From Ancylomarina sp. DW003 (GTDB lineage Bacteria; Bacteroidota; Bacteroidia; Bacteroidales; Marinifilaceae), in the NCBI RefSeq assembly GCF_029029505.1, contig NZ_JAKJSD010000004.1, positions 124,001 through 188,000 of the forward strand: 64,000 bases of DNA, in the 5' to 3' direction. Positions within the stretch are counted from its first letter, which is position 1; each line of letters starts with the position of its first letter. The notes beneath the pieces were generated by a model. The model saw nothing but the letters and a program-made list of their open reading frames with translations. It was not told the DNA's origin and searched no databases. Below, piece by piece: positions 7,983 through 49,919 of this stretch. A program made the position numbers and the translations under genes.

Positions 7983-9080
7983 TTATTTTTTCACGTTCAT
8001 AATTTCTGTTTGATGAGCAATTGATTCTTCGTGAATGGCTTTGAAAAGCTTACTAATGAATCGTTCACTAAGATTTGAATTCTTAGCTTCAGCCAAATGC
8101 TTCTCTAAAATACTTTCCCAACGCCCCGATTGAAGAATGGTCATGTTGTTGGCTTTTTTATACTCACCAATTCCATTGGCAGCTTCCATTCTTTTTTGAA
8201 GAATAGCCATCACTTCGTTATCGTATTGATCAATTTTAAATCGAAGATCTTCAAGCGTATCTAATACAATACCGTCAGGATTTTCGATACGTAGCTCTAA
8301 ATTAGAAAGAAGCTCAGTCAATCGTTTAGGCGTAATTTGCTGTTTTGCATCACTCCAGGCTTCATTCGGAGTTGGATGTGTTTCAATCATCAAACCATCG
8401 AAGTTAAGGTCCATGGCTTTTTGAGAAACCGATTGCAATAATTCACGATTACCACAAATATGGCTTGGATCACAAATGACAGGCATATCAGGCATGCGCC
8501 TTTTCAATTCGATAGGAATCTGCCATTGCGGAATGTTTCTGTAGATACTGTGCTCGTAGCTCGAGAAACCACGGTGAATAGCCCCCAATTGTTTGATACC
8601 TGCTTTTTCTAATCTTTCCAGAGCTCCCATCCAAAGTTCAACATCCGGGTTCACAGGATTTTTTACTAATACCGGAATGTCAACACCTTCAAGGGCATTT
8701 GCAATTTCTTGCATAGCAAAAGGATTGGCAGAAGTACGAGCTCCAACCCATAAAATATCAACACCATATTTTAGAGCCTCGAAAACATGGTTTACATTGG
8801 CAACCTCGGTGGCTGTTTGCATACCTGTTTCTTGCTGAACTGTTTTCATCCACTCTAAACCTTCTTTGCCTACACCTTCGAAACAATTCGGTCGGGTACG
8901 AGGTTTCCAGATACCTGCACGAAAGATCTCAACACCTTCATCTTTTAAAAGACGAGCTGAATTTAGAACCTGTTCTTCGGTTTCTGCACTACATGGTCCT
9001 GCAATAACTAATGGTCTTTCAATCTTATTTAAATCTAACTTACTTTTCATTTCTTCTCTAATTTGGCTGATAGTTAGCAA
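7983..9080 (-). CDS. aroF: Bifunctional DAHP synthase / chorismate mutase type II
   Basis: The fusion enzyme catalyses the first step of the shikimate pathway (PEP + erythrose 4-phosphate to DAHP) and the chorismate-to-prephenate step. Residues about 1-265 form the DAHP synthase barrel with GPCSAE near residue 28, KPRTRPNCFEG near 60 and a DPSHICGNR substrate motif. Residues about 270-360 form an all-helical AroQ-type chorismate mutase (IDQYDNEVMAILQKRM). This fusion is common in Bacteroidota and usually allows feedback control by prephenate or aromatic amino acids. It is the last gene of the pheA operon, 133 bases after tyrA. Confidence 0.93.
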   Translation of the reverse strand: MLTISQIREEMKSKLDLNKIERPLVIAGPCSAETEEQVLNSARLLKDEGVEIFRAGIWKPRTRPNCFEGVGKEGLEWMKTVQQETGMQTATEVANVNHVFEALKYGVDILWVGARTSANPFAMQEIANALEGVDIPVLVKNPVNPDVELWMGALERLEKAGIKQLGAIHRGFSSYEHSIYRNIPQWQIPIELKRRMPDMPVICDPSHICGNRELLQSVSQKAMDLNFDGLMIETHPTPNEAWSDAKQQITPKRLTELLSNLELRIENPDGIVLDTLEDLRFKIDQYDNEVMAILQKRMEAANGIGEYKKANNMTILQSGRWESILEKHLAEAKNSNLSERFISKLFKAIHEESIAHQTEIMNVKK

Positions 9081-9213: not shown

Positions 9214-10056
9214 TTATTCTCTTAAGGCTCTTTTTATTCGGTTTGCTTTCGAAATCATGCCGATTAAATCATCCCGATCTCTTTTTTCGATGGCTGTTTT
9301 AAACTTGTTCAAACTCTCGATATAGGTATTGAGAACTGTTAAAACATTGTCCGCGTTATGATTGAAAATAGGAGCCCACATCTCGGCATCACTCTTGGCT
9401 AATCGAACTGTTGAATCGAAACCTCCGCTTGCAAGGTCAAAAATATTTTTTTCATTTTTTTCTTTTTCTAATACCGTTAGGGCAAGTGCAAAGGAGCTTA
9501 TGTGGGAAATGTGAGAAATATAAGCCGCATGCACATCGTGATTGAATCCACTCATATAAAGCACTCTCATATTCAGGAACTCATACATTTTGTGTACCGT
9601 TTGTAAGACGTTTTCATCACTATCTTCAGCATCACAGAAAATAGTGGCCTTCCCATCGAAAAGGCCAGCTTTTGCTGCCCAAGGCCCCGAATGCTCAGTT
9701 CCTGCCATAGGGTGAGTTGCTACAAATTGTTTACGATTTTGATGATATTTAACCCTGTCACATATTTGACTTTTTATGGAAGCCACATCGCAAACAACTT
9801 GCGAACTGACTTTATCCAATACTTTGGGTAAAAGTTTAAGAGTGGCATCTCCAGGTATAGCCAATACAATCAATTCACTTTCGTTGATCAATTCATCCAT
9901 CGTACTTACCGAATCGATTAAGCCAAATTTCAATGCCGTCTCAGCATGAAGCTTGCTCGCATCATGGCCCAATATTTTGGAAGCGAAACCGCGCTTTCGT
10001 AAATCAGTGGCTATTGAACCACCTATTAACCCCAGACCTATTATTCCTACTTTCAT
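9214..10056 (-). CDS. tyrA: Prephenate dehydrogenase
   Basis: The enzyme oxidatively decarboxylates prephenate to 4-hydroxyphenylpyruvate, the tyrosine branch. The 280 residues begin with an NAD(P)-binding Rossmann motif (GIIGLGLIGGSIA, residues 3-15), followed by the family motifs HPMAGTEHSGP and ISHISHISSFALA of the helical dimerisation half. There is no fused chorismate mutase; that activity is supplied by the next gene. Only 22 bases separate it from the aminotransferase upstream, so it is in the same operon. Confidence 0.93.
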   Translation of the reverse strand: MKVGIIGLGLIGGSIATDLRKRGFASKILGHDASKLHAETALKFGLIDSVSTMDELINESELIVLAIPGDATLKLLPKVLDKVSSQVVCDVASIKSQICDRVKYHQNRKQFVATHPMAGTEHSGPWAAKAGLFDGKATIFCDAEDSDENVLQTVHKMYEFLNMRVLYMSGFNHDVHAAYISHISHISSFALALTVLEKEKNEKNIFDLASGGFDSTVRLAKSDAEMWAPIFNHNADNVLTVLNTYIESLNKFKTAIEKRDRDDLIGMISKANRIKRALRE

Positions 10057-10078: not shown

Positions 10079-11251
10079 TTAAACAGGTATTTCTTCATTC
10101 TTTTTGCATCTCTCAATAGCCTTCGTAATTGTTTCTTCTGTTGCACAGAGTGAAAAACGAATGTATTTTTTACCCTCTTCACCAAACACAATCCCTGGTG
10201 TGGCAAACACATTTTTTTTATAGAGTAGATCATCTGAAAAATCTTCTCCTGAATTGTACTCGTCTGGTATTCTGGCCCAAACGAACATGCCTACACTATC
10301 TTTTTTGTATTTGCAGTTTAGCTTATCGGCTAATTCCCAAACAAGATCTCTACGTTTTTTATAACTTTTATTAAGCTCCTTATACCAGCTAGAGTCTAAT
10401 GCCAAGGCTTTGCTTGCTGCAATTTGAATTGGCTTATACATGCCCGAATCGAAATTACTTTTCACCTTGAGTACATGATTGATATTGCTCTCCGATCCGC
10501 AAAGCATACCTACTCTAAAGCCAGCCATATTATGAGATTTACTCAGTGAATTCATTTCTAATACATATTCGCTTGCACCTTCAACTTGCAATAAACTCTC
10601 AGGATTATCATTTAAGATTAAACTGTAAGGGTTATCATTAACCACAAGAATGTTCTTCTTCTTTGCTAAGTCAACCAGTTGCTTAAAAATATCCATATTC
10701 CCATTAGCACCTGTTGGCATATGTGGGTAGTTTGTCCAAATCATTCTGCAGGATTCATCACATAGAGAATCGATCTCTTGCATATCAGGTAACCAATTGT
10801 TTTCTTCTTTCAGGTTGTAAAACTTCAGGTTTATGTTTAGAAGTTTAGCCGCTGATAAATAAGCCGGATAGCATGGATTGGGAACAAGAACGGTTTCTCC
10901 TGGATTACAAAAAGCCATTGAAACATGCATAATACCTTCCTTCGAGCCCATTAATGGTAAAATCTGATTCGCAGGATTTAATTCCACATCATAAATCGAT
11001 TTATACCAATTCGCAATTTCCTGACGAAATGATTCCAGACCTCTGTATGATTGATAATGGTTGCTGCCTGTTTGGTCGCAGGCATGTACCAGTTCTTTTT
11101 TTACATCGGGATGTGGAGGCAAGTCCGGACTACCAATTCCTAAGTTGATAATATCGGCACCGTCTTCTTTAAGTTGAGCGACTTCAGCCAATTTCTTGGA
11201 GAAGTAGTATTCTTCAACTTGCGATAATCTATTGGCTGTTCTAATTGTCAT
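10079..11251 (-). CDS. Class I PLP aminotransferase (aromatic operon)
   Basis: The fold-type I aminotransferase has the PLP-lysine region MNSLSKSHNMAGFRVG, NDNPY for the Asp/Tyr cofactor contacts, and a C-terminal RFSLCA arginine motif. Its position between pheA and tyrA suggests that it transaminates phenylpyruvate and 4-hydroxyphenylpyruvate to Phe and Tyr. LL-diaminopimelate or aspartate aminotransferase activity is possible from homology alone. I chose the start at 11251 (MTIRTANRL), which overlaps pheA by 11 bases. An in-frame start at 11284 would add 11 residues and overlap pheA by 44 bases. Confidence 0.88.
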   Translation of the reverse strand: MTIRTANRLSQVEEYYFSKKLAEVAQLKEDGADIINLGIGSPDLPPHPDVKKELVHACDQTGSNHYQSYRGLESFRQEIANWYKSIYDVELNPANQILPLMGSKEGIMHVSMAFCNPGETVLVPNPCYPAYLSAAKLLNINLKFYNLKEENNWLPDMQEIDSLCDESCRMIWTNYPHMPTGANGNMDIFKQLVDLAKKKNILVVNDNPYSLILNDNPESLLQVEGASEYVLEMNSLSKSHNMAGFRVGMLCGSESNINHVLKVKSNFDSGMYKPIQIAASKALALDSSWYKELNKSYKKRRDLVWELADKLNCKYKKDSVGMFVWARIPDEYNSGEDFSDDLLYKKNVFATPGIVFGEEGKKYIRFSLCATEETITKAIERCKKNEEIPV

Positions 11252-12089
11252 TGTGATGAATTTTTGAGTAAGATTGATTTCCATTGGTGTATTCGCCTAG
11301 GATATCAAGTCTGTCTAATTTTGCAGTTATTTCATTAATCATTTTCTTGTACTTCGTTTTATCATCGAATAAAACATCGAGATAAAACTGATAGTGCCAT
11401 GGCTCTCCAACCAATGGTACTGACTCAACTTTGCTTAAATCAATATCGTAAGAAGCAATTATTGAAAGAATTTCAGCTAAACTTCCTTTGTGGTTATCAA
11501 GAATCATAGCTATGGACGCTTTATTACTAGGCTGCTTTTTCCAATTTTCATCATTTCTTAAAATTAAAAATCGGGTATAATTCTTTTTATTTGTTTCAAT
11601 ACTTTCTGCAAGCACTTCTAAATCGTAGTGTTGAGCAGCTAAAAGACTTCCTATTGCGCCTCTGTTGTCCAGATTATTTTCAGCAATTTCTTTCATACTT
11701 AAAGCTGTATCGATAGAATCTACAAGGTGAACATTGGGGTGTTGCTTAAAGAATTTCCTGGTTTGGTTAATAGCCATATAGTGAGAATGAACCTCGTTAA
11801 GATCTTCAATTTTAGTTCCTTTCTTTGCCACTAAATTTTGCTTAATTCTAAGGTATTCTTCGCCGCACACCACCAATTTATGTTCACGTATCAGATTTAA
11901 GTTGGAATGAATAGTTCCCGAAATGGTGTTCTCAACTGCCATGATTCCATAATCGCAGTCACCGTTTTTAACAGCTTCTGCCAAGTCTGAGAAATGAAGC
12001 TTAGGCAAAATATCGATTTCATTTCCGAAATAATTTCGAGCTGCCACTTCGTGGAATGCACCTTTTACACCTTGTATTGCTACTTGCAT
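11241..12089 (-). CDS. pheA: Prephenate dehydratase
   Basis: The enzyme converts prephenate to phenylpyruvate for phenylalanine synthesis. The 282 residues carry the catalytic lobe motifs (GVKGAFHEVAA at 7-17, VENTISGTIHSN around 52-63 and a YTRFLIL stretch). They are followed by a C-terminal ACT domain from about residue 195 (KASIAMILDNHKGSLAEILS; ESVPLVGEPWHYQFYLD), which normally mediates Phe feedback inhibition. There is no fused chorismate mutase. It is the first structural gene behind two tandem leader peptides and attenuators. Confidence 0.94.
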   Translation of the reverse strand: MQVAIQGVKGAFHEVAARNYFGNEIDILPKLHFSDLAEAVKNGDCDYGIMAVENTISGTIHSNLNLIREHKLVVCGEEYLRIKQNLVAKKGTKIEDLNEVHSHYMAINQTRKFFKQHPNVHLVDSIDTALSMKEIAENNLDNRGAIGSLLAAQHYDLEVLAESIETNKKNYTRFLILRNDENWKKQPSNKASIAMILDNHKGSLAEILSIIASYDIDLSKVESVPLVGEPWHYQFYLDVLFDDKTKYKKMINEITAKLDRLDILGEYTNGNQSYSKIHHNDN

Positions 12090-12134
12090 TTTGATTAAAT
12101 TCTAATGGTTATTTTAATTTTGGCTAATAAAAAA

Positions 12135-12162
12135 AGCGTCTCGAGGATTTCCCCGAGACGCT
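12135..12162 (-). terminator. Attenuator terminator B of the pheA operon
   Basis: Read on the minus strand, AGCGTCTCG and CGAGACGCT form a 9-bp stem around a 10-base loop, followed directly by a run of about 7 T. It lies about 45 bases before pheA. The 5' arm region GTCTCGGG (12152-12159) is complementary to CCCGAGAC in leader peptide B (12205-12212), giving a competing antiterminator. Confidence 0.88.
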
Positions 12163-12187
12163 TTGCACATTATTCTGTTCGTTTAGT

Positions 12188-12274
12188 TCAGATCATGTCA
12201 TACAGTCTCGGGTAGCTTCTAAAATAGAAGAACCAGAAATAAAAGAAATAGTTATATGACATTGATGTATTCAT
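12188..12274 (-). CDS. pheL: Phe/Tyr leader peptide B (28 aa)
   Basis: This short frame starts ATG at 12274 and ends TGA at 12188-12190. It encodes a 28-residue peptide with six Phe, six Tyr and one Trp; residues 7-18 read YNYFFYFWFFYF. A second in-frame ATG lies at 12262. Terminator B begins 26 bases after the stop. The leader codons CCC-GAG-AC fall where a ribosome stalled on the Phe/Tyr run would leave them free to pair with the terminator arm. This is the classical layout of ribosome-mediated attenuation, here for Phe/Tyr supply. Translation itself is not shown. Confidence 0.85.
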   Translation of the reverse strand: MNTSMSYNYFFYFWFFYFRSYPRLYDMI

Positions 12275-12297
12275 CTGTTGTATTGAAAATTTAAACT

Positions 12298-12330
12298 AAA
12301 AAAAAAGGCTTCGCAATTTGCGAAGCCTTT
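12298..12330 (-). terminator. Attenuator terminator A of the pheA operon
   Basis: On the minus strand AAAGGCTTCGCA, loop AAT, TGCGAAGCCTTT forms a perfect hairpin followed by about 9 T. It separates leader peptide A from leader peptide B. The segment GCGGAACCT just after leader A's stop (12360-12368) can pair with AGGCTTCGC of the 5' arm with one G-U pair and one mismatch, giving an antiterminator. Confidence 0.87.
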
Positions 12331-12372
12331 AAAATATTTTGTTGTAATATTTACATATCAGGTTCCGCTCTA

Positions 12373-12423
12373 TCATTTGATAAAGTAAAAATAGAACCAG
12401 AAATATGAATTTAATACAGTCAT
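12373..12423 (-). CDS. pheL: Phe/Tyr leader peptide A (16 aa)
   Basis: The short frame encodes MTVLNSYFWFYFYFIK, with four Phe, three Tyr and one Trp in eight consecutive residues. It starts about 20 bases downstream of a good promoter and is followed by terminator A. The core bases ATTTCTGGTTCT are shared with leader peptide B, which suggests duplication of the attenuator unit. It should sense charging of tRNA-Phe and tRNA-Tyr. It is well below usual gene-calling length. Confidence 0.85.
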   Translation of the reverse strand: MTVLNSYFWFYFYFIK

Positions 12424-12443
12424 GTTGTCTTATTTTGATGTGT

Positions 12444-12474
12444 GCAATGTAGGAGGGATTTTTTTATCATGCAA
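12444..12474 (-). promoter_or_regulatory. Promoter of the pheA operon
   Basis: On the minus strand TTGC (12471-12474), 19 bases, then TACATTGC (12444-12451) fits the Bacteroidota sigma-ABfr pattern TTTG-N19-21-TAnnTTTG with one deviation in the -7 box. Transcription would start near 12437, just upstream of leader peptide A. Confidence 0.65.
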
Positions 12475-12663
12475 GAAAAAAATGGAATTAATTTATGAAA
12501 ACGTTTGCAGGGGTGAGTTTGGTTAAGTTGATAGCTGGTTTAAACTCAATTGTTTATATGTTCTATGAAATTTCATGAAGCATATAGTCAGGATATCTCT
12601 ACTAAATTCTTTAAATTAGAGCTCTTGCAAAAAAAAAAGACTTGCTATCCCTAAACACTACGA

Positions 12664-15600
12664 ATGAACGAATCGGTTTTAAATGCTTTAATGAAATTGT
12701 TTGCCATCATTGTTGATGAGCAGAAACATGGTTTTGAATTAGCTGCACGTGATGTGGTTTCTCATTACTTAGAAACCCGATTTAATAAGGAGTGGCAAGA
12801 TCGATATCTAAATAATTTTGATGCATATCTAAAAGAATCTTATTACGATACTGAAGATTTTGACTATAAAATGGTGAAACACAGGCAAATTCATGAAGCT
12901 TGTGTTGAGATATTGGAAGAGGTTGATCAGGAGCAAAAAGTGTGGATTTTACTTCAATTACTTGAGTTTATTGATGATTCTGAATTTACAGGCGAAGAAG
13001 TTATTGACTTTGCTCATACAGTAGCTGCATCATTTAAAATTTCAGCTGAAGAGTTCGAATTGGCTCATAAATTTATCTTAGGGGATGAGTATTCTATTCC
13101 ATTTAACGAACATTTACTATTAATCGATAGTAATGAAGATTTTGAGAATGATCAGGTGAAGCATATTTATGAACCGAAGCTTCGTGGTCGTGTTTTTGTT
13201 CTTCGTATCGAAAGTACCAAGACCTATTTAATTAAGTATTTTGGGGAATACAACTTATTTTTGAATGGGCATAATATTAAGGTTGACAGGAGTTACACCA
13301 TTACATTTGGATCTGTAATTCGTTCGCCACGTATCGATCCAATTTACTATTCTCAAATTGTATCTGAATTTATAGAGCGTAAAGATCGATCGCGAATTAA
13401 TATAGTTGCTAAGAACGTTGAATTTAAGTTTAAAGGTACCGAAAATGGTGTACACCCTTTAAATTTTAAAGCCGAATCAGGACAGTTGATCGGAATTATG
13501 GGTGGAAGTGGGACGGGTAAATCTACACTTTTAAATGTTCTAAATGGCAACCTTCCTCTGAATTCTGGTAATATCTGGATCAATGGCTACGACTTGCATA
13601 AAGAGAAAGATAAGTTGGCTGGTATTATTGGTTATGTGCCTCAGGATGATTTATTGTTGGAAGAATTAACTGTGTTCGAAAATCTCTATTATAATGCAAA
13701 GTTATGTTTTGAGAATATTTCGGAAAAAGCCATCTACGGTAAAATAGAGGATACACTTGAGAAATTTGACTTGGTTGAGGCTCGTGACTTGAAGGTTGGA
13801 GATCCTATAAATAAAATCCTAAGTGGTGGTCAGCGTAAGCGCTTGAATATTGCTTTGGAAATGATGCGTCGTCCTTCGGTTCTTTTTGTTGATGAGCCAA
13901 CTTCTGGTTTATCAAGTATGGACTCGGAAAAAGTGATGCTTCTTTTGAAACGTCAAACTCTACGTGGACGTTTGGTCATGTGTAATATTCATCAGCCATC
14001 TTCAGATATTTTTAAATTATTAGATGTTCTGATAATTCTGGATCAGGGTGGAAGGGTGATTTATTCAGGTAATCCTATTGAAGCCATTATCTATTTTAAG
14101 ACTCAAAGCCATTTTGTAAACCCAGAAGAAAGCGAATGTTTGACTTGTGGTAATGTGAGTTCGGAGCAAATTTTAAAAATTATCGAGACCAAAATGATGA
14201 ACGAATATGGTAAGCAGATTCGTAAACGTAAGAGAGGTCCCGAAGAATGGCATGCCTTATATAAAGAACAAATAGAGGATAAGAGGAAAATAGATAAGCC
14301 TGAGAAAAAAGCGGATTTACCTGAAAACTATTTTCAGATTCCCAGAAGATTAAAACAGTTGAAAATTTACTTGGCTCGCGATGTTAATGCGAAATTGAGT
14401 AATATTCAATATATGATGATTACCTTATTGGAAGCACCATTACTGGCTGTTATTTTAGGATATTTCACAAAATACATTAGTGGATCGATTGATGATCCAA
14501 CGGCTTATATTTTTGCGAAAAATGAGAATTTGCCATCTTATATTTTTATGTCTGTTGTGGTTGCTTTATTTCTTGGCTTGATTATATCTGCTGAGGAAAT
14601 ATTACACGATAGGCGGATTATCAAACGTGAATCTTTTCTGAATTTGAGTCGTTGGAGTTATATCAATTCCAAAGTGATTGTGATGTTAGGTATATCGGCA
14701 ATTCAAACCTTATTTTTCGTTCTTATTGCGAACTCGATATTAGAAATTAAGGGCTTGAATCTAGAATATTGGTTGATGCTATATACAGTTTCATCTTGTG
14801 CTAACTTGATTGGCTTGAATTTGTCAGCATCTTTGAATTCGGTTGTGGCCGTTTATGTGTCCATTCCATTTATTTTGGTTCCTCAACTCTTGTTTTCGGG
14901 TGTAATTGTGAGTTACAACAAGTTACATCCAAGTATTACAACTCAAAAATATGTGCCGGTTTGCGGCGATTTAATGACATCGAGATGGGCTTATGAAGCT
15001 TTGATGGTAGAACAGTTCAGTCAGAATAAATTTGAAAAACAGTTTTTTGATCTGGAGAAGAAGATGAGTGATGCTTCTTATATGGCATCTTTCTTGGTTC
15101 CGGAATTATCACAACGGTATAAATCCTATGTGAGGCATGCTAACGAAAAAAAGAATAAAGTTGCTAATCTTTCATTGCTACGTGATGAGTTTGGTAAACT
15201 ATCGCATATTGAATCTCTACCTAAAAATATTTCTTACACCAATGCTGATTCTGTTAATCAATGGTTAGATGATTTGCAACAAATAGCTTGGAGTTCTTAC
15301 TCTCGTGCATCTAATAACCGGGATCAGGCTTATAATAAACTTCTGACTAAATATAAGAGCTCTGATGAACTTTTTGCTTTCAAGCAGAAATATCACAATG
15401 AGGCCATTGAACAGGTTGTTTTAAATAAGCGAGATTTGAATAAATTTACTGAGTACGAAGGGGAGTTGGTTCAGTTGAAAGATCCCATATTTAAATCACC
15501 GGAACATAAAATAGGTAGAGCTCATTTTTATGCAGCAGAAAAGCGTATGGGTAACTACTTGATTGAAACCTTTTGGTTTAACCTTGCGTTTATTTGGTTG

Positions 15601-15726
15601 ACAACGGCATTTTTTTACTTCACCTTGTATGTCGATTTCTTCAGAAGATTCTTTGTTCACGCAGAACGCTTGTGGCTGAAAGTTATGCCATATGGAGATT
15701 TTAAAATTAGATTGAAGAGACTGTAG
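12664..15726 (+). CDS. Large ABC transporter: helical and FHA-like N-terminus, ATPase, ABC2 membrane part
   Basis: The 1020-residue single-chain half-transporter has four parts. An all-helical, acidic N-terminal region (about 1-160) resembles TerB-like domains. A beta-rich, FHA-like segment spans about 170-240. The ATPase has Walker A GGSGTGKST at 280, signature LSGGQRKR at 386 and Walker B with D410/E411. An ABC2/ABCG-type membrane part spans about 575-790 with a final membrane segment near 970-995. An extracytoplasmic helical insert (about 800-950) lies between the last two membrane segments. The order matches ABCG-type exporters; the substrate is unknown. A close paralogue lies at 62880-64000. 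Confidence 0.85.
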   Translation: MNESVLNALMKLFAIIVDEQKHGFELAARDVVSHYLETRFNKEWQDRYLNNFDAYLKESYYDTEDFDYKMVKHRQIHEACVEILEEVDQEQKVWILLQLLEFIDDSEFTGEEVIDFAHTVAASFKISAEEFELAHKFILGDEYSIPFNEHLLLIDSNEDFENDQVKHIYEPKLRGRVFVLRIESTKTYLIKYFGEYNLFLNGHNIKVDRSYTITFGSVIRSPRIDPIYYSQIVSEFIERKDRSRINIVAKNVEFKFKGTENGVHPLNFKAESGQLIGIMGGSGTGKSTLLNVLNGNLPLNSGNIWINGYDLHKEKDKLAGIIGYVPQDDLLLEELTVFENLYYNAKLCFENISEKAIYGKIEDTLEKFDLVEARDLKVGDPINKILSGGQRKRLNIALEMMRRPSVLFVDEPTSGLSSMDSEKVMLLLKRQTLRGRLVMCNIHQPSSDIFKLLDVLIILDQGGRVIYSGNPIEAIIYFKTQSHFVNPEESECLTCGNVSSEQILKIIETKMMNEYGKQIRKRKRGPEEWHALYKEQIEDKRKIDKPEKKADLPENYFQIPRRLKQLKIYLARDVNAKLSNIQYMMITLLEAPLLAVILGYFTKYISGSIDDPTAYIFAKNENLPSYIFMSVVVALFLGLIISAEEILHDRRIIKRESFLNLSRWSYINSKVIVMLGISAIQTLFFVLIANSILEIKGLNLEYWLMLYTVSSCANLIGLNLSASLNSVVAVYVSIPFILVPQLLFSGVIVSYNKLHPSITTQKYVPVCGDLMTSRWAYEALMVEQFSQNKFEKQFFDLEKKMSDASYMASFLVPELSQRYKSYVRHANEKKNKVANLSLLRDEFGKLSHIESLPKNISYTNADSVNQWLDDLQQIAWSSYSRASNNRDQAYNKLLTKYKSSDELFAFKQKYHNEAIEQVVLNKRDLNKFTEYEGELVQLKDPIFKSPEHKIGRAHFYAAEKRMGNYLIETFWFNLAFIWLTTAFFYFTLYVDFFRRFFVHAERLWLKVMPYGDFKIRLKRL

Positions 15727-49567: not shown

Positions 49568-49644
49568 TTTCTAGATTTGTTACTTTTAGTCAAGAAAAAG
49601 ACTCTCTTACCCTTTTTTTGCAAATATTATATAGCTTTGCAAAT

Positions 49645-49825
49645 GTATTGGTTTCCTAATTTCAGGAATTAAAAGGGAATCCGGAAAGAAGCCGGAGCTG
49701 TACCCGCAGCTGTATGTCCTGCTCGACTTGTTCGAACAATATATCCAAACATTATAACCACTATCTTTTCGAGAGATTGAAGAAATGGGAAGGAGTTTGG
49801 ATGGATGAGCCAGAAGACCTGCCTA
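49645..49825 (+). promoter_or_regulatory. Cobalamin riboswitch
   Basis: The conserved parts occur in order: AAAAGGGAAT near 49671, CCGGA...GCCGGAGCTGTACCCGCA around 49681-49708 (the B12-box core with GCTGTACCCGCAGCTGTA), and GATGAGCCAGAAGACCTGCC at 49804-49823 (the 3' closing part). A TAGCTTTG box (49632-49639) fits a promoter -7 element just upstream. It should repress the BtuFCD-like genes when adenosylcobalamin is plentiful. Confidence 0.92.
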
Positions 49826-49919
49826 AAAAATAATTTATTCGTAACTTCGGGAGTTGAGTAACGGAATCATTGCTTCTGGCATTGGCTTCTTTTCTACTTC
49901 CCATTCTAATTTTTATGTA

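Follow-up and report, generated by a model that had tools for sequence, protein, structure and literature searches.

The classical attenuators of pheA, trp and his operons consist of a short open reading frame (ORF) rich in codons for the product amino acid, an antiterminator, an intrinsic terminator and the biosynthetic gene. Tandem riboswitches for one ligand with two complete units, e.g., those for TPP and c-di-GMP-I, are termed pseudo-cooperative (PMC9481103). The leader of Salmonella mgtCBR carries two attenuators for two signals, ATP and proline, without evident intrinsic terminators, and was termed a singular example in 2012 (PMC3641672). Naville and Gautheret reported in 2010 a second terminator in tandem at rimP, in an article whose main text does not contain the term 'bacteroid' (PMC2965389). 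A study of Flavobacterium psychrophilum described an element before pheA and gave hints that operons for amino acids are attenuated by leader peptides (PMC9723704), and the RNA Bacteroid-trp (RF01692), described for trp, is listed in PMC2864571.

The pheA leader studied here contains two units, A and B, and each has the same parts in the same order as Phe_leader (RF01859) and the classical attenuators; the differences are the presence of two complete units in series and scores under the gathering threshold of Rfam. Like the pseudo-cooperative tandem riboswitches, it places two complete units, each a sensor with its terminator, one behind the other before a single gene, and the codon make-up alone points to the same signal for both; however, the sensor here would be a ribosome translating a leader ORF instead of an aptamer (PMC9481103). 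With mgtCBR it shares two short ORFs per leader, each of them predicted to control elongation, but it apparently uses one signal twice and has two intrinsic terminators (PMC3641672); two different signals were not indicated by the composition of the two ORFs. The F. psychrophilum element belongs to the same phylum and the same gene, and the part of that report available to us describes no tandem arrangement (PMC9723704). Bacteroid-trp, too, is an RNA from the leader of a Bacteroidetes amino-acid operon and differs in being a trp element (PMC2864571). Serial leader-peptide attenuation by the same signal was not found in the open-licence literature searched; subscription papers may hold it. The mechanism of each unit is known; a series of leader-peptide units appears to be a new variant.

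Layout of the pheA leader and proposed control

The window, i.e., the whole stretch of 64,000 nucleotides analysed, has its nearest named relatives in Ancylomarina (Marinifilaceae), with PheA identities of 82-92 %. On the minus strand, between 12480 and 12089, a promoter-like block, leader A, terminator A, leader B, terminator B and pheA followed each other in this order (Table 1). A sequence-only reading had placed both leaders and both terminators, and ORF and terminator analysis confirmed these positions. Its description of the peptides as dominated by Phe and Tyr with a common core also held: the 12-mer ATTTCTGGTTCT was present in both, and Phe, Tyr or Trp made up 8 of the 16 residues in A and 13 of the 28 in B. 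According to the domain assignments, the products of the pheA operon are enzymes of Phe and Tyr synthesis. The longest ORF of the aminotransferase shares 44 nt with pheA, and its real start possibly lies later. Since the neighbour at 12664-15726 is divergent, terminators A and B cannot serve an upstream gene, and an assignment as ends of such a gene was ruled out.

Table 1. Features of the pheA leader region and operon, and further amino-acid leaders
Feature	Position or loci	Strand	Evidence and remarks
Putative Bacteroidota-type promoter	12444..12475	-	TTG, 20 nt, TACATTGC (near match to TAnnTTTG); conserved block
Leader peptide A	12373..12423	-	ORF; MTVLNSYFWFYFYFIK, 16 aa (4 Phe, 3 Tyr, 1 Trp)
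Putative antiterminator segment A	12359..12369	-	Directly after the leader A stop codon; pairs with 12329-12319
Intrinsic terminator A	12304..12330	-	-17.5 kcal/mol; 6 T past the stem
Leader peptide B	12188..12274	-	ORF; MNTSMSYNYFFYFWFFYFRSYPRLYDMI, 28 aa (6 Phe, 6 Tyr, 1 Trp)
Putative antiterminator segment B	12201..12213	-	Within the leader B reading frame; pairs with 12162-12151
Intrinsic terminator B	12133..12164	-	-23.5 kcal/mol; 4 T past the stem
pheA, prephenate dehydratase	11241..12089	-	Operon head; Pfam PDT 3.9e-54; NCBIfam models under their cut-offs
Class I/II aminotransferase, gene 2	10079..11284	-	Pfam Aminotran_1_2 2.9e-60; longest ORF
tyrA, prephenate dehydrogenase	9214..10056	-	NCBIfam NF006307, 338 bits (cut-off 295)
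DAHP synthase - chorismate mutase	7983..9080	-	Pfam DAHP_synth_1 and CM_2
ABC transporter, other side of the pheA leader region	12664-15726	divergent from pheA	ORF and domain search
trpE leader, Trp-rich, single unit	leader 26382-26289, terminator 26261-26229	-	MNASVCKFWWWHN...; same scan
ilvD upstream loci with doubling noted	L197-L201, L232, L210, L263-L286		L210 belongs to another family

In both units, the codon-rich short ORF was followed by an intrinsic terminator before the gene, and a predicted antiterminator made use of the 5' arm of this terminator. The T run of terminator A comprised nine residues, to 12298, and that of terminator B seven, to 12129, three of them in each case within the stem. 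The duplex formed by segment A was calculated at -10.8 kcal/mol (z -2.84, p 0.010 against shuffles), that of segment B at -17.2 kcal/mol (z -2.76, p 0.016; p 0.053 with an alternative run end). In the full fold, the 5' end also paired over a long range with the sequence preceding terminator B; by eye this pairing was absent from the genus alignment, and it was discarded.

Both strands of the window were scanned for ATG-started ORFs with at least 6 Phe, Tyr or Trp in 10 residues and a terminator. Exactly two such units were obtained, both at the pheA leader; four more appeared with the threshold relaxed to 5 in 10. At the gathering level, the pheA leader stretch was without any Rfam family match, riboswitches and their ligand-binding aptamers included. 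The sole gathering match in the window was a cobalamin riboswitch at 49632-49840 on the plus strand (80 bits). In a permissive scan of 801 bases with an E-value threshold, Phe_leader ranked first and second, on unit A (12421-12299, E 4e-4, 35.8 bits) and unit B (12258-12127, E 4e-3, 31.2 bits); both matches were full length and on the correct strand, a third, weaker one (E 0.83) lay on the opposite strand. As the scores are under the gathering threshold of 55, the units were not filed as members of RF01859, and the threshold misses both pheA leader units of the window. Bacteroid-trp matched unit A weakly (25 bits against a gathering threshold of 49, E 2.8). Among 16 further tandem loci scanned, a Phe_leader match at E<=5 was obtained in eight, and in one of these eight both units matched; Rfam was too weak as a detector for the pheA set.

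We consider it likely that pheA is controlled by serial, ribosome-mediated attenuation in which two complete units respond to the same signal, charged tRNA-Phe and tRNA-Tyr. This reading builds on features visible in the sequence: the parts, their order and complementarity, their conservation and recurrence in other lineages, and the missing -7 motif between the units. The course of events that we infer, from the start site over stalling and termination to transcript ends, multiplicative output and use to the cell, would be the following. RNA polymerase would start once, upstream of leader A. In cells replete with Phe and Tyr, the ribosome would reach the stop codon of leader A and cover the antiterminator segment; terminator A would form and transcripts would end about 140 nt from the start. 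With the ribosome stalled in the Phe/Tyr run, the segment just ahead would be free to pair with the 5' arm of this terminator, and the polymerase would continue. At leader B, a freshly loaded ribosome would repeat the same test before the genes for PheA, the aminotransferase, TyrA and DAHP synthase - chorismate mutase. Expression would be the product of two read-through probabilities, and the series would provide a lower leak in the replete state and a wider fold range with little added sharpness. In a toy model with a read-through of 0.1 to 0.7 per gate, the arithmetic for two gates instead of one gave a 49-fold instead of a 7-fold range and a leak of 1 % instead of 10 %, together with a full expression of 49 % instead of 70 % and a Hill coefficient of 1.1 instead of 1.0. 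Because the latter stays at 1.1, the gain would be in range and tightness rather than in a second threshold.

Conservation and recurrence of the two units

Pairwise comparison of six loci of the genus revealed identities of 91.8 % for leader A, which was free of indels, 93.1 % for terminator A and 90 % between stop A and terminator A. The corresponding values for unit B were 90.3 % (leader), 88.3 % (terminator) and 77 % (stop B to terminator B). Leaders and terminators, at 88-93 %, were thus conserved above the A-B spacer (73 %); the stretch from terminator B to pheA had 81 % identity. The promoter block was conserved at 86 % versus 59.5 % further upstream.

The sampling covered 183 pheA loci, drawn from the genus, family, order, class and phylum of the window and supplemented by 14 named records, among which L036 bears the title Chlorobiota. 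After dropping L066, which was without upstream sequence, and removal of copies, 173 distinct pheA upstreams were scanned; as the draws are nested and uneven, the shares of one-unit and two-unit loci are not frequencies. The strict scan detected two units in 32, one in 110 and none in 31 upstreams, compared with 0, 6 and 513 in 519 dinucleotide shuffles; on the reverse strand, two units were found in none and one unit in two of the 173. The relaxed scan yielded 40, 104 and 29 (shuffles again 0, 6 and 513). With L107 and L062 added by eye, the final tally was 42 upstreams with two units and 102 with one. The class without units contains leaders missed by the scan, e.g., L111 and L119. Predicted leader-peptide attenuators, one or two per locus in 144 of the 173 upstreams, are common before pheA in the sampled relatives. 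The comparison with relatives, proposed together with the sequence-only reading, came out in its favour: both peptides and both hairpins are kept in the genus, and the two units recur outside it.

Within the window's family, pheA upstreams of 11 genera were examined, and eight of these genera had tandem loci. Ten further coded families had them as well, as did Pontibacter (L040; its family is perhaps among the coded ones) and the unplaced metagenome-assembled genomes L034-L036. In the order draw, they numbered nine among 49 pheA-bearing genomes of 48 families (L001, L006, L011, L014, L026, L103, L107, L108 and L110). When the tandem label was placed on a PheA tree with 172 rows, no fewer than 12 changes were needed, of which starred branches forced 10; the mean after shuffling was 37.7. 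As this is a gene tree from a short search, with long branches and with losses counted as changes, it shows repeated gain or loss, not the number of gains. The term 'duplicated', used in the sequence-only reading, finds little support: A and B were barely more alike within a genome (likeness score 25.5) than between genomes (22.9; p 0.008), and a genome's own B ranked first for its A in just one of 19 lineages. A fresh in-place duplication of a unit is not claimed.

It is unlikely that a single unit functions and that its partner has survived by chance as a decaying copy. A unit can decay, since damaged B units occur in relatives: leader B of L072 is without ATG, and in L032 terminator B is weak (-8 kcal/mol) and leader B contains a single inserted base. 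The scan found no second unit in three of the 11 pheA-bearing genera of the family. However, the genus conserves both units alike (A 90-93 %, B 88-90 %, spacer 73 %), and two units persist in the remaining eight genera and in the ten further coded families.

Antiterminator predictions extended to the whole pheA set. With p<=0.05 against shuffles, they were obtained for 74 of the 104 single units, 30 of the 39 B units and 25 of the 42 A units; the mean z was -2.93 for single units, -2.74 for B and -2.11 for A. No significant antiterminator was found in 17 of the 42 A units, including all seven loci of genus g128, which are close kin. Among the units with an antiterminator p<=0.1, the segment of A started at the stop codon (median -1 nt relative to the ORF end, n=22), that of B about 24 nt before the ORF end (n=35) and that of one-unit loci 19 nt before it (n=84). 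The difference between A and B had a p of 0.003 over 11 paired lineages, with L157 in the opposite direction and L026 near equal. It is not general, because the ilv pairs of L200 and L197 have their two segments at -23 and -24. A leaky first gate followed by a tight second gate is our guess from this segment geometry.

Signals and transcriptional entry

The amino acids read by the two leaders were compared in 19 lineage representatives of our choice. Tyr as share of Phe plus Tyr was 0.376 in A and 0.361 in B (p 0.64) and covaried between the two (rho 0.71, p 0.0007; rho 0.58, p 0.018 minus three Phe-rich family lineages). In L057-L061, both leaders contain Phe and no Tyr. Trp codons were few, four in all A and seven in all B leaders of the 19 lineages. 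The equal and covarying Tyr share indicates that A and B most likely read the same tRNAs, thus they probably read one signal twice. Two signals, with A and B reading different aromatic amino acids as an AND gate like that of mgtCBR for ATP and proline, would suit an operon that makes both Phe and Tyr, as two units could share the task; but the composition leaves neither a systematic difference between A and B nor a notable part for Trp, and the Phe-only leader pairs also argue against it, so we regard such a gate as very unlikely. Different inputs for A and B were rejected on these grounds. Of the two outputs named in the sequence-only reading, multiplicative control would follow from the layout; two thresholds were not borne out, with a Hill coefficient of just 1.1 in the toy model.

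The motif TAnnTTTG is the -7 promoter motif of Bacteroidota. A scan for E. coli-type sigma-70 promoters found none upstream of leader A. The exact TAnnTTTG is absent from the genus itself, and Ancylomarina has the near match given in Table 1. Of the 42 tandem loci, 29 had the exact motif in the 100 nt preceding leader A, but none had it in the interval from stop A to start B (mean 92 nt; compared upstream stretch 95 nt). Upstream of the sole leader, 66 of the 102 one-unit loci had the motif, against a shuffle rate of 11 %. A promoter upstream of leader A is inferred from the conserved, Bacteroidota-like block. As no inter-unit interval has a -7 motif, unit B is most simply reached by read-through of unit A, and this seems to be the case. 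This supports the two serial attenuators of the sequence-only reading, behind one promoter-like block.

The gap between terminator A and leader B measured 9-43 nt in 35 of 41 tandem loci (L062 was left out), 60 nt in one and 103-226 nt in five; the five long gaps all belong to genus g128 and leave room for an unrecognised promoter. Most improbable is a separate entry, with an internal promoter driving leader B and pheA and with A ending a stand-alone small RNA or peptide, since these five gaps stand against the 35 short ones and the motif distribution, 0 of 42 between the units versus 29 of 42 upstream of A. The long gap between the two units of L067 and L068, at about -370 to -165 in the pheA upstream, contained by eye two similar copies of the sequence preceding leader B, which looks like a local segment duplication.

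Doubled ilvD leaders and other amino-acid operons

A second doubling was observed at ilvD, where two leaders rich in Ile and Val and two terminators were found upstream of the gene in all five genus genomes. The ilvD scan comprised 58 upstreams, five from the genus and 53 from the order draw, with three places not included. Two units were detected in five, one in 27 and none in 26 by the strict scan; the relaxed scan yielded 7, 41 and 10, with L210 and L232 added to the doubled loci. Shuffles did not produce two units (0 of 290 and 0 of 232). Of 24 further ilvD loci of the family, 18 had two units, four had one and two had none, so that two were carried by 24 of the 30 family loci examined, which were taken from 33 search matches. 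By genus, all loci were doubled in seven genera of the family, one of two in another and none of five in three others. The antiterminators of the ilv pairs in L200 and L197 were not significant for the first unit (p 0.34 and 0.11) and borderline for the second (p 0.076 and 0.044). In the order draw, ilv doubling occurred in three of seven genomes with a doubled phe leader and in none of 33 others (p 0.0035; p 0.02 with one genome per family).

In L278 (G167:C1), from another genus, both ilvD leader peptides and their spacing were identical to those of L200 (G000:C6) in the window's genome. The identity reflects either transfer or assembly contamination, and L278 may not be independent of the window's genome. 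Other operons had simpler leaders. The trpE leader of the window was a single unit (Table 1), and upstream of hisG (L192-L196) a single leader with five or six consecutive His codons and a terminator was present in all five genus genomes. The homoserine dehydrogenase loci (L202-L209) had no units apart from two Leu-rich matches in L207, which were taken as coding sequence.

We are evenly divided over the wider view that serial same-signal attenuation is a selected and repeatedly evolved design of Bacteroidota at phe and ilv operons, in which the phe gates diverged in geometry, the ribosome stopping before the segment in A and translating through it in B, and may act as a leaky first and a tight second gate. 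A natural series of two switches, apparently for the same amino acids and found before two operons in a single genome, would mean that stacking, as in tandem riboswitches, is also possible for ribosome-based switches. Relatives with a single unit and relatives with two form ready pairs for asking what a second gate contributes to leak, range and robustness.
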